DNA of 64,000 nucleotides from Paracoccaceae bacterium (GTDB lineage Bacteria > Pseudomonadota > Alphaproteobacteria > Rhodobacterales > Rhodobacteraceae), in the NCBI GenBank assembly GCA_028097405.1, contig JAOHEK010000016.1, positions 1 to 64,000 on the forward strand. The letters are read 5' to 3'. A program made the translations under genes and the position numbers. The notes beneath the pieces were generated by a model, which saw only the letters and a program-made list of their open reading frames with translations, ran no database searches and was not told where the DNA came from. Below, piece after piece: positions 36,327 to 39,812 of the stretch (position 1 is its first letter; each line of letters begins with the position of its first letter).

Positions 36327-36746
36327 ATGCGTCACGCACGAGGCTATCGCCGCCTCAATCGCACCCATGAGCACCGAAAGGCGCTTTTTGCCAACATGGC
36401 CGGGTCGCTGATTGAACATGAACAAATCAAAACCACGCTGCCGAAAGCCAAAGAGCTTAAGCGCATCATGGACAAGATCATCACGCTTGGTAAGCGCGGA
36501 GATTTGCACGCACGCCGTCAGGCTGCTGCGCGTTTGAAGCAGGACATGCACGTCGCTAAGTTGTTCGAGGTTCTTGGACCCCGCTACAAAGAGCGTTCGG
36601 GTGGGTACACCCGCGTCATGAAAGCCGGGTTCCGCTATGGTGATATGGCGCCAATGGCGATCATCGAACTGGTCGACCGGGACGCTGACGCGAAAGGTTC
36701 TGCTGACCGCGCGCGTCTTGCAGCCGAGGACGCTGCTGAAGAATAA
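36327..36746 (+). CDS. rplQ: 50S ribosomal protein L17
   Basis: L17 is at the tunnel exit. It has 139 residues with start [20 protein letters not shown] and an acidic Ala-rich tail. A 130-nt spacer after rpoA is rich in short GC palindromes (CCCGGGATAGCCGGG type). It ends the ribosomal super-cluster. Confidence 0.98.
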
Positions 36747-36770
36747 GGTGAGTTTTAGATTTACCGATGA

Positions 36771-36805
36771 AGCCGCTCTGGATGTTCGTCCGGGGCGGCT
36801 TTTTA
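36771..36805 (+). terminator. Terminator after rplQ
   Basis: A GC-rich stem (AGCCGCTCTGG facing CCGGGGCGGCT) is followed by TTTTTAG. It overlaps the stop codon of the small minus-strand ORF. Confidence 0.85.
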
Positions 36806-36982
36806 GTTTCTGATTGTTCCAGGCTTCAGCGCAAGTGTAAGCGACGTCAGCAAGTGATCCTGAGTTTCAGCGCCGCTTAGGTCGGAACGCGAACTGGCAT
36901 CCAGAAAGCTGAGCAGTTGTTCAAGCTGTGACGGTTCCGGATTTGCCGAATTTTTGATCTTCTTGGAGTTAGTATCGAACAT
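36803..36982 (-). CDS. Small hypothetical protein divergent from luxR
   Basis: The 59-residue frame starts MFDTNSKKIKNSANPEPSQL and contains one probable amphipathic helix (QLEQLLSFLDAS). It has no signal or membrane segment and no recognised family. It faces away from luxR and shares the 37.0 kb upstream region that holds the lux-box-like palindrome, so it could be quorum-controlled. Its ribosome-binding site is weak; an upstream in-frame start at 37021 is less likely. It may not be a gene. Confidence 0.4.
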   Translation of the reverse strand: MFDTNSKKIKNSANPEPSQLEQLLSFLDASSRSDLSGAETQDHLLTSLTLALKPGTIRN

Positions 36983-37028
36983 GGAGCACTCAATTAGGAG
37001 AAAGGTTAATATCACGTACAATTTAAGG

Positions 37029-37066
37029 TTGACTGAGTGTTGCGCAACTTGTCTAAAAGGACAGGT
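37029..37066 (+). promoter_or_regulatory. luxR promoter candidate with overlapping lux-box-like palindrome
   Basis: The 20-bp imperfect palindrome ACTTGTCTAAAAGGACAGGT (37047-37066) has arms ACTTGTC and GACAGGT with one mismatch. The length and half-sites are those of classic lux boxes (ACCTGT half-sites). It overlaps the -10 (TCTAAA, 37052-37057) of a candidate promoter whose -35 is TTGACT (37029-37034) at 17 nt. A LuxR-type protein bound there could act on luxR; the overlap with the -10 would fit repression. The role is inferred. Confidence 0.55.
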
Positions 37067-37137
37067 AAGTCCAACAAGTCGAGTGGCGCGCCTGCGAAAA
37101 ACTCAATAATTCCAAGAAGCCTGTCGAAAGAAGAACC

Positions 37138-37809
37138 ATGTGGCGTGACAATGAACCGTACGAGCGTCTGGATCGGAACCAGATAACTAAGACCGCCAAT
37201 GCCGACAAAACGTCGTTGTCGGCGAATTTTGACGCTTTGGGTCGCCTTTCTCCATGTGGTTTCTCAGCCGGACTTCACATCCGTTTTGCTTCGCCGATGA
37301 TTTACGTGCGTACGTATGATGAGGCGTGGACAAAACTCTACGATGAGAATGCGTATGCCTTACGTGATCCTCTTGTGTTTTGGGGGGTGGGTGTAAAAGG
37401 ACATACACGGTGGAGTGCGATTAAGCTTCCGGATCCGTTCAACATTCTCGGCCAAGCTCAAGACTACGGGCTTGTTTATGGGGCTGTGATATCTTGTGGG
37501 CCAATTACCTCGCGCAGTATCGTGGGCATGGCACATCATGAACGTGAGTTCACGGATGAAGAAATCTCGGAAGCAGTAAAGATCGTACAAAATCTTCACA
37601 TGGCAGCAGAGCCCCCAACCGAGTTGACGCGCGCGCAGATAGAAGCGTTGCGTCTGCTAGCTGATGGGGACCGGCACGCTGCCGCAGCTGCAAAACTTGG
37701 CATTTCAGAAAGCGCCTTTAAAGCGCGTCTGCAGTCGGCAAGGGTTCGGCTGGGTGCGCGCACAACGGCTCAAGCGCTAAAGAAGGCCCGAGAATACCAG
37801 CTTTTATAG
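37138..37809 (+). CDS. luxR: LuxR-family acyl-homoserine-lactone-responsive regulator
   Basis: The 223-residue regulator has an N-terminal autoinducer-binding domain. W64, Y68, D77, P78 and W92 keep exactly the spacing of the AHL-binding residues of TraR/LuxR (W57, Y61, D70, P71, W85). The C-terminal helix-turn-helix (LTRAQIEALRLLADGD to LGISESAFKARL, residues 161-200) retains the conserved Glu, Leu and Gly. It lies directly upstream of luxI on the same strand, so it is a cognate receptor rather than an orphan. The ATG follows AAAGAAGAACC. Confidence 0.93.
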   Translation: MWRDNEPYERLDRNQITKTANADKTSLSANFDALGRLSPCGFSAGLHIRFASPMIYVRTYDEAWTKLYDENAYALRDPLVFWGVGVKGHTRWSAIKLPDPFNILGQAQDYGLVYGAVISCGPITSRSIVGMAHHEREFTDEEISEAVKIVQNLHMAAEPPTELTRAQIEALRLLADGDRHAAAAAKLGISESAFKARLQSARVRLGARTTAQALKKAREYQLL

Positions 37810-37862
37810 GCAGTACCGTCTCCCTGATCAGGTTTTTTTAACCCAGACTGGAGACTGTACCA
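37810..37862 (+). promoter_or_regulatory. luxR-luxI spacer with inverted repeat
   Basis: GTACCGTCTCC (about 37814-37824) and GGAGACTGTAC (about 37849-37859) are an 11-nt inverted repeat with one mismatch that brackets the whole spacer and ends 3 nt before luxI. A T7 run lies between. It could form a hairpin that hides or exposes the luxI ribosome-binding site. The function is untested. Confidence 0.5.
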
Positions 37863-38453
37863 ATGCAAGTAACTACTCTTTCGTTCGCCAATTTACACAA
37901 CCATGGCGAGCTTTTTGCCAATATGTTTCGTGCTAGACGACAAACTTTCATCGAACGAAACAATTGGAATCTTCCCGAAGCAAATGGAATGGAATTCGAC
38001 CAATATGATACGCCAGCGAGCCGATGGGTCGCTGTTCATGAATTTGGTCGCGTTCTTGCGGGCGTGCGTTTAACGCCAACCACTGCGCGCTGCGGCATCT
38101 ATTCCTATATGATCCGCGATGCTCAATTGGGGCTTTTGGACAGCATCGCTCAGGATCTGCTGTTCGAAAAGGCACCGGTTGCACCGCACATCTGGGAATC
38201 GAGCCGCGTGTTTGTAGCGGATGATGTGCCGGCAAAGCTGCGGCTGCGTGTCCAATGCGCGTTGATTAGTGAAATGGTGCGGTCTGCCCGCGAGTTGGGG
38301 GCCACATCGCTGATCGGTATCGTGCCCGAGCATAGCCCACGGCTTGCCCGGCGTACTGGCATCGATTGTGTGCCTGCGGGTCGGGTCATTGAAACAGATG
38401 GCGGGGATCGCAGCGTGTGCATCAACATTGGTCTGGCGACCAAGCTGCACTAA
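37863..38453 (+). CDS. luxI: Acyl-homoserine-lactone synthase (LuxI family)
   Basis: The enzyme makes N-acyl-homoserine lactones from S-adenosylmethionine and an acyl carrier. It has 196 residues. The invariant residues are all present with standard spacing: R25, F29, W35, E44, D46, D49, R69, E112 and R115, in motifs FRARRQTF, MEFDQYDTP, RLTPTT and WESSR. The acyl chain length cannot be read from sequence. It follows luxR after 53 nt, and rarA begins 51 nt after its stop. Confidence 0.96.
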   Translation: MQVTTLSFANLHNHGELFANMFRARRQTFIERNNWNLPEANGMEFDQYDTPASRWVAVHEFGRVLAGVRLTPTTARCGIYSYMIRDAQLGLLDSIAQDLLFEKAPVAPHIWESSRVFVADDVPAKLRLRVQCALISEMVRSARELGATSLIGIVPEHSPRLARRTGIDCVPAGRVIETDGGDRSVCINIGLATKLH

Positions 38454-38504: not shown

Positions 38505-39812
38505 ATGGCAGATTTATTTGATACCACGGGGGCGGCGTCTCTATCGGCGCAGCGCCCGCTTGCCGACCGGTTGCGCCCGGCGTCGCTGAACGATGTGATC
38601 GGGCAAGACGATTTGTTGGGTGCCGAAGGGCCGCTTGGGGCGATGATCGCGGCCAAAAGCCTTGGGTCGCTTATCCTTTGGGGGCCACCCGGCGTCGGCA
38701 AGACGACAATCGCGCGCCTTCTGGCGGATGCGACGGACCTCAGCTTCGTGCAAATCAGCGCGATCTTTACCGGTGTACCGGACCTGAAGAAGGTGTTCGA
38801 GGCAGCGCGGATCAGGCGGGAGAACGGGCAAGGCACGCTTTTGTTCGTCGATGAAATTCACCGGTTCAACAAGGCTCAGCAAGACGGGTTTTTGCCGTTG
38901 ATGGAAAACGGCACGATCCTTTTGGTTGGGGCCACGACTGAGAACCCGTCGTTCGAGTTGAACGCAGCGCTTTTGTCGCGGGCGCAGGTGATGGTGTTGA
39001 ACCGGTTGTCGCTAGCTGAACTGGAACGGCTTGCGCAACGGGCTGAAGCCGATTTTGGCCGTGCTTTGCCTTTGGATGGCCGGGCCCGTGATGCTTTACT
39101 GGAAATGGCAGATGGCGACGGGCGCGCACTTTTGAACCTAATCGAGCAAGTCGCCAGCATTCCGACCGAGACAAAGTTGACCACCGAAGCCCTGACCAAA
39201 CGTTTGATGCGACGGGCGGCGGTTTACGACAAGTCGGGCGATGGTCACTACAACCTTATATCGGCTTTGCATAAATCGGTACGGGGATCGGACCCGGATG
39301 CGGCTTTGTACTGGTTTGCCCGGATGCTTGAGGGTGGGGAGGACCCACGTTTTTTGGCGCGGCGCATTTCACGGATGTCGGTTGAAGACATTGGTCTGGC
39401 TGATCCGCAGGCGCAAGGCGTGTGTCTTGAGGCGTGGAACACCTATGAACGCCTTGGCAGTCCCGAGGGTGAGTTGGCCTTGGCGCAGGCGGTGACCTAT
39501 CTTGCGCTCGCTCCGAAATCAAACGCGGGCTATGTGGCCTATAAAGCTGCGCGGCGTGACGCCAAGACCACTGGGTCAGAGCCTCCTCCGAAGCATATCT
39601 TGAATGCGCCGACGGGCTTGATGAAAGATCAGGGTTACGGCGATGGTTATACCTATGACCACGATGCCGAGGATGGGTTTTCGGGGCAGAACTACTTTCC
39701 CGAGACGATGAAACGGCCCGTGTATTATACGCCGGTCGAGCGTGGTTTTGAGCGCGAATTGAAGCGCCGTCTAGACTATTTTGTAAAACTGCGCGCCAAG
39801 CGCGAGAGTTGA
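38505..39812 (+). CDS. rarA: Replication-associated recombination protein A (AAA+ ATPase)
   Basis: RarA (MgsA) is a clamp-loader-like ATPase acting at stalled replication forks. It has 435 residues, with Walker A GPPGVGKTT near residue 63, Walker B LLFVDEIHRFNKAQQD and sensor 1 GATTENPSF. The C-terminal tetramerisation domain has a KSVRGSDPDAALYW motif. It begins a compact run rarA-crcB-rluC-ATP12. Confidence 0.96.
   Translation: MADLFDTTGAASLSAQRPLADRLRPASLNDVIGQDDLLGAEGPLGAMIAAKSLGSLILWGPPGVGKTTIARLLADATDLSFVQISAIFTGVPDLKKVFEAARIRRENGQGTLLFVDEIHRFNKAQQDGFLPLMENGTILLVGATTENPSFELNAALLSRAQVMVLNRLSLAELERLAQRAEADFGRALPLDGRARDALLEMADGDGRALLNLIEQVASIPTETKLTTEALTKRLMRRAAVYDKSGDGHYNLISALHKSVRGSDPDAALYWFARMLEGGEDPRFLARRISRMSVEDIGLADPQAQGVCLEAWNTYERLGSPEGELALAQAVTYLALAPKSNAGYVAYKAARRDAKTTGSEPPPKHILNAPTGLMKDQGYGDGYTYDHDAEDGFSGQNYFPETMKRPVYYTPVERGFERELKRRLDYFVKLRAKRES

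Follow-up and report, generated by a model that had tools for sequence, protein, structure and literature searches.

The window analysed here, a 64,000-nucleotide stretch of a Paracoccaceae bacterium genome (contig JAOHEK010000016.1, positions 1 to 64,000), carries a luxR-luxI cassette flanked upstream by rplQ (36327-36746) and downstream by rarA (38505-39812). luxR (37138-37809, plus strand), of the gtaR/luxR1 type, encodes 223 residues and was assigned by its Autoind_bind match and its neighbourhood; luxI (37863-38453, plus strand), of the gtaI/luxI1 type, encodes a 196-residue acyl-homoserine lactone (AHL) synthase and was assigned by its Autoind_synth match and an alignment of 17 sequences. 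An earlier note had described both genes as intact, and indeed both frames are open. The LuxR protein is a LuxR-type receptor by its score of 36.9 bits to Autoind_bind (Pfam cut-off 23), and the LuxI protein is a LuxI-type AHL synthase by its score of 60 bits to Autoind_synth (Pfam cut-off 24). W35, D46, D49, R69, E112, and R115 of LuxI, which we take to be the catalytic landmarks, are invariant among the 17 sequences. Residues W64, Y68, D77, P78, and W92 of LuxR are invariant in an alignment of nine, and their labels as AHL-pocket residues come from an offset to positions given in the available text of PMC11655674 and not from an alignment with TraR. The window LuxR is extended at its N-terminus by about 20 residues and scores 16.2 bits to GerE (Pfam cut-off 23.5); the GerE score of Cereibacter sphaeroides GtaR is likewise weak, going by the text available (PMC11655674). 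A second Autoind_synth match in the same genome (L002, G000:C25:58717-58995) reaches 23.5 bits, below the cut-off of 24. Following rplQ, a terminator-like stem (36769-36802, plus strand) of 15 pairs and a T-rich tail abuts the stop codon of a small ORF described below; four such sites were found vs. a mean of 2.1 in shuffled sequences, which supports this stem weakly.

LuxI matches at E 1e-5 occur in 116 of 198 family genomes, that of the window included, and the best 81 loci were studied, with weaker matches left out. An adjacent LuxR of the same type is present in 64 of these 81, rplQ as well in 59, and RarA too in 53; among 80 named loci, LuxR is adjacent in 79, rplQ also in 68, and all four genes in 65, some loci in both sets being incomplete at a contig or extract edge. 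The order rplQ-luxR-luxI-rarA is thus kept in 53/81 extracted and 65/80 named loci. gtaR, luxR1, and C. sphaeroides gtaR are reported to share a conserved neighbourhood (PMC11655674, PMC6363796, in the text available), and in GtaR/GtaI of Rhodobacter capsulatus and LuxR1/LuxI1 of Dinoroseobacter shibae, as in the window, luxR precedes luxI with a GtaR box upstream. From the motif, the neighbourhood, and the available text of PMC11655674, we take the cassette to be the chromosomal gtaRI/luxR1-luxI1 quorum-sensing locus of the R. capsulatus/D. shibae kind. The earlier note had grouped the palindrome, a divergent ORF, and a luxI leader hairpin as a regulatory unit; each of the three is conserved in many genera, but the cassette and its box are an already established system (gtaRI/luxR1-luxI1, with the box published in PMC11655674 as far as its available text goes). 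At the rplQ locus of L014 and L021, and also of L106 and L115, a second luxR-luxI pair stands in tandem with the first, and the LuxI copies have about 60% identity to that of the window, beside one at 66-76%.

The spacer between rplQ and luxR holds a putative operator at 37046-37067, without assigned strand, which agrees with the published GtaR motif RACMTGTCYWWWWRGACAKGTY at 20 of 22 positions. According to PMC11655674 (available text), 18 of 24 Rhodobacteraceae have this motif upstream of their GtaR orthologues. The palindrome noted earlier at 37047-37066 is present, although imperfect: the 20-mer has 6 symmetric pairs out of 10. A search for the GtaR box allowing up to three mismatches gave one match in the whole window (0.01 expected), and one further site with three mismatches (C51:2122) elsewhere in the incomplete genome, where the reversed control gave none; this second box-like site is locus L233 (G000:C51:2122-2143). 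In the available text of Fogg 2019, other predicted GtaR sites are reported as not bound in vitro.

The overlap of the palindrome with a -10 candidate of luxR was confirmed. TCTAAA (37052-37057) forms the centre of the box and lies 17 nt from a candidate -35, TTGACT (37029-37034, plus strand), a pair that a generic sigma-70 scan did not report. Among 59 box-bearing loci (box score at least 17/22, with L128 and L138 removed by hand as chance box scores), TTGAC starts exactly 17 nt upstream of the box in 45, in the geometry TTGAC-17-TCTAAA, so that the -10 candidate is inside the box. The distance from box to luxR varies between groups of loci. The end of the box and the luxR start are 71 nt apart in the window; in 34/59 loci (e.g., L036, L052, L108) the luxR ATG is inside the box, in frame, 5-8 nt past the -10 candidate, from which a leaderless luxR mRNA may be predicted there. 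The position of the box over the -10 candidate agrees with what the available text reports for R. capsulatus, where GtaR occupies the -10 and the start site of its own promoter (PMC6363796). As far as the sources are available, GtaR is described as a repressor of its own operon, relieved by AHL (PMC11655674), and in D. shibae an increase in luxR1 is seen 10 min after AHL addition (PMC6473078), a response that fits both derepression and activation by the AHL-bound receptor.

Facing away from luxR across the same spacer is the small ORF of the earlier note (36803-36982, minus strand; 59 residues from the ATG), assigned as a gene by profile search, context, and coding signature; the window copy has no clear Shine-Dalgarno (SD) sequence. 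A pairwise search with the 59 residues matched only its own genome (1/198), and the ORF is absent from a congener; both would be expected if the frame were open by chance or were carried along with the intergenic region, a reading that the following evidence renders very improbable. The minus strand of rplQ-luxR intervals carries an ORF of about 55-65 residues, in many cases with a shared core LxxLPxxxRxDLLEFLG. An alignment of 50 of 51 compiled small ORFs (A5; L103 left out) was used as a profile against 295 whole genomes, blind to position and with a threshold of E ≤ 0.01, and gave 54 matches in 53 genomes. Of the 54, 50 (that of the window among them) are at the rplQ-rarA/luxR locus; the other four score lowest (E 0.0023-0.0086), and the neighbouring genes are all absent around them. 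Seventeen of the 50 on-locus matches lie outside the A5 training set (G271, G235, G103, G069, G203, G237, G180, G202, G241, G040, G270, G205, G225, G253, G219, G268, and G231), and all 17 are beside luxR and/or within the rplQ-rarA interval: luxR is adjacent in 14, and a box of at least 19/22 is nearby in 14. Locus context for ten genomes (G184, G048, G080, G132, G140, G049, G060, G159, G120, and G163) was taken from the A5 loci. Profile matches in 119 distinct intervals, mostly in-sample, fall 52 times on the minus strand and never on the plus strand. The profile search thus reversed an apparent refutation, and the verdict of an unconserved ORF drawn from the pairwise search was dropped. Beyond the family, a class-wide profile search of 289 genomes gave, besides the window genome, only three marginal matches (E 0.005-0.009), none of them convincing.

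The small ORF and the box tend to occur together. In the same 119 intervals, with the box scored at 18 or above, 45 have both, 10 the box only, 7 the ORF only, and 57 neither (Fisher p 1.2e-15, kinship ignored). Among the 50 intervals shorter than 200 nt, none has the ORF and two have the box. In 43/47 loci the ORF starts 54-69 nt from the box, typically at about 60 nt. The ORF is absent from G151 (L004/L087), the one congener among the genomes compared, where the interval measures 286 vs. 391 nt, and from another close relative (L008). Taken literally, this is the disruption in close relatives that the earlier note had named as grounds for refutation, but profile matches occur in some 50 other genera, and we argue on that distribution that the gene was probably lost in G151 and L008, as opposed to never having been a gene.

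Judged by its substitution pattern, the small ORF is protein-coding and under purifying selection. Two close gap-free pairs have dN/dS of 0.17 and 0.14 and an excess of third-position changes (10/8/27 and 13/6/25 substitutions by codon position), which argues against a chance frame. The closest pair, with only 12 substitutions (3/4/5; dN/dS 0.29), is hardly informative, and other unsaturated pairs range from 0.20 to 0.68, the pairs having been picked by protein similarity, which biases the more distant ones. The predicted product belongs to a conserved, fast-evolving family of apparently helical microproteins of about 60 residues. Fifty members compared with Pfam, NCBIfam, and PHROGs gave best E values of 0.022, 0.011, and 0.033, each in one or two members, and so no known family; comparison with PDB sequences gave no match (best E 0.18). 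The structure model of the window copy has two helices (pLDDT 68, pTM 0.34), and that of the Nioella homologue L108 has three (pLDDT 79.5, pTM 0.58), and together the models suggest a small helical bundle. A fold search with the L108 model returned only generic three-helix matches (best E 4.7 in PDB and 1.1 among viral structures). The best Z score, 5.5 to the Noc DNA-binding domain, was tied with affibodies, and no function is claimed from the fold.

The small gene and box also occur where luxRI is gone. Genomes G271 and G103 have the order rplQ - small ORF - box - rarA, with neither luxR nor luxI between, and box scores of 20/22 and 22/22, respectively. Since ORF and box outlast luxRI there, the box appears, from this arrangement, to have a role for the small gene independent of luxRI. 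Elsewhere in both genomes is a row comprising a LuxR in which the C-terminal portion of the profile is missing, a complete LuxR that includes GerE, another LuxR, and a distant LuxI. These rows of HTH-less LuxR, GtaR-like LuxR, LuxR, and LuxI (L237, 1819-4531; L238, 3191-5792) resemble the cerN-cerM-cerR-cerI order, and no box of at least 17 was seen in either region. CerM and CerN of C. sphaeroides, from a different locus, are GtaR-related regulators that recognise a similar site. The available text of PMC11655674 describes CerM as binding GtaR-like sites and acting chiefly as an activator, with weak repression of gtaR, and mentions no divergent small gene for CerM/CerN. In G069, luxRI has moved to contig C1 (L020/L221) and the ORF stays between rplQ and rarA on C56 (L199); no box is left at the old locus, where the best score is 14. 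Another locus, L204 (G241:C14), keeps luxR and the small gene and lacks luxI, with a second close LuxR on contig C7; the same state, luxI missing beside gtaR, is reported for C. sphaeroides in the text available.

Persistence of the small gene in G271 and G103, where a GtaR-like paralogue and an HTH-less LuxR occur elsewhere, may also be read in terms of a direct partner or anti-activator of GtaR/CerM that closes a feedback loop and is not an effector with other targets. TraM acting on TraR is the model for such an anti-activator. A divergent neighbour under the same operator and the fast evolution of the protein would suit this role, but 67/119 intervals have no ORF match, many gtaR genomes are without the small gene, and the fold search matched no known anti-activator. 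We regard this role as rather improbable.

The placement of the box relative to the small gene bears on the sign of its regulation. A candidate -10 on the minus strand (TAAATT, 37020-37025) falls in a conserved CAnTTTAAGGTTGAC block of the 59 box-bearing loci; this promoter assignment is putative, and it would put the start of small-gene transcription near 37013 and the box centre near -43. Activation by an AHL-bound regulator from such a position is classical (class II) LuxR activation. The box position relative to this presumed start therefore also suits a switch of opposite sign, in which AHL-bound GtaR would activate the small gene and the small protein would be a high-density output or a negative feedback, and most LuxR regulators are activators with AHL (PMC11655674, of activators in general, available text). 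However, the reported repression by GtaR of its own operon and its relief by AHL (PMC11655674), and the binding of DNA without AHL by the related CerM and EsaR (PMC11655674, PMC13365800), all as given in the available text, speak against it, and we consider the opposite sign unlikely. The closer parallel is esaR/esaS of Pantoea stewartii, where, in the text available, AHL-free EsaR represses its own promoter and activates the divergent one (PMC13365800; also PMC11655674). There, as in the window, one operator lies between two divergent promoters, and the geometry agrees as far as sequence can tell: the box covers the -10 candidate of the regulator's own gene and lies upstream of the other. EsaR differs in belonging to another LuxR subclass, with an extended linker and C-terminus (PMC11655674, available text), and the divergent product in the window is a conserved protein. 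Because the box geometry matches the esaR/esaS operator, we propose an EsaR-like regulatory logic for the window.

The 53-nt luxR-luxI gap (37810-37862, plus strand) contains the third feature. The 11-nt inverted repeat that the earlier note had placed around this gap is there, at 37813-37823 and 37850-37860, with 10 of 11 positions complementary by eye. The gap has a predicted fold of -19.8 kcal/mol, in which the luxI SD core GGAG (37850-37853) pairs with CUCC at 37820-37823, 11-14 nt past the luxR stop. In predicted folds the SD core is paired upstream in 56 of 61 loci, which are the 64 LuxR-adjacent loci minus L037 and L071 (excluded for gap length) and L067 (excluded for its start codon). 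SD accessibility compared with dinucleotide shuffles in 63 loci gave a weak result (mean paired probability 0.79 vs. 0.66; median fraction reaching the observed value 0.20), and since the pyrimidine-rich arm was thought to bias the shuffles, this test was replaced by one in which arms were swapped between loci. Cognate arms of the 61 loci average -17.98 kcal/mol vs. -14.59 for swapped arms (z -8.8, 0/20,000 permutations). The effect persists from L018 on, i.e., outside the closer relatives of the window (z -7.0, n = 46), and for swaps within GC bins (z -7.0, 0/20,000). At single loci the median rank of the cognate pair is 0.20, and it is the best of all in 6/61. Controls gave z values of +1.5 for the rplQ leader, -1.1 for luxI coding sequence, -1.1 for the 5′ part of the gap with luxI coding sequence, -2.2 (a weak effect) for the rarA leader, and -2.8 for the 5′ part of the gap with the rarA leader. 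A held-out set of 66 further named loci, still relatives, after removal of 10/76 gaps identical to ones used before, gave z -7.6 (0/20,000); like all the swapped-arm statistics, this value ignores kinship. In the held-out set the SD core is paired upstream in 50/66 luxI leaders, 13/111 rplQ leaders, and 9/15 rarA leaders, and the luxI 5′ arm lies a median of 13 nt past the luxR stop. Next to the core, pair types vary (C-G 52 and T-A 24; G-C 43 and T-A 23), as read from the predicted folds themselves and not from an independent test.

MAFFT and RNAalifold on the luxI leaders yielded 0 consensus pairs, since the 5′ arm of the hairpin was misaligned. No common hairpin was seen upstream of luxI in the 17 loci without adjacent LuxR; as the start codon is probably misplaced in several of them, they were not counted. 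In an Rfam scan of the locus, sub-threshold hits to L10_leader (27.2 bits vs. 44) and sX7 (26.6 vs. 55) were not accepted. The swapped-arm comparison shows, at the level of predicted folds, that the luxI SD is enclosed in a stem with co-varying arms, the 5′ arm of which comes after the luxR stop. Hairpins that couple translation by sequestering the SD have the SD in the 3′ arm and the 5′ arm just after the upstream stop, and the luxI leader of the window has this layout. A stem covering the SD is also the usual form of an RNA thermometer, so that the hairpin could instead be a thermometer, a small-RNA target, or a processing site. The Rfam scan, however, matched no family at the hairpin, and the 5′ arm is so near past the luxR stop that ribosomes finishing luxR would disturb the stem. 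We consider this alternative less likely than not and favour a coupler.

We lean, if only slightly, toward a two-way switch in which AHL-free GtaR represses gtaRI and activates the small gene, with luxI translation coupled to that of luxR. Conservation, coding, co-occurrence, geometry, and the co-varying stem are documented by the genome comparison, and to these we add promoter positions, a sign of regulation, and a translational coupling that we infer. At low cell density, AHL-free GtaR would sit on the box, block the luxR promoter, and from about -43 activate the small gene. As AHL accumulates, GtaR would leave the box, luxR-luxI transcription would rise, and the small gene would fall silent. 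A ribosome terminating at the luxR stop would open the luxI hairpin, so that the synthase would be made in step with the receptor, and the small protein would act at low density as an effector or a brake.

As far as could be found in open-licence literature, neither the divergent small gene nor the luxI hairpin has been described; the available accounts of GtaR/GtaI and LuxR1/LuxI1 describe neither, and the literature searched, in the text available, contained no SD-sequestering coupling hairpin for any luxR-luxI pair. Both parts occur in relatives such as Nioella, Jannaschia, and Silicimonas, which are among the named loci. The small protein is easily missed because it is short and fast-evolving. 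Our tentative view, held at slightly under even confidence, is that gtaRI has a third component, a fast-evolving microprotein under the GtaR operator, expressed when AHL is scarce and sufficiently independent of gtaRI in its role to persist with its box in genomes that have lost gtaRI but retain a CerM-type paralogue, together with a conserved RNA coupler linking synthase output with translation of the receptor. In well-studied Rhodobacteraceae, systems of the gtaRI type act on gene transfer agents, motility, and CtrA (PMC11655674, PMC6363796, PMC6473078, in the text available). A small protein on the GtaR operator may be a concrete candidate for relaying the low-density state of the AHL-free receptor, and the luxI hairpin would explain proportionate levels of receptor and synthase.
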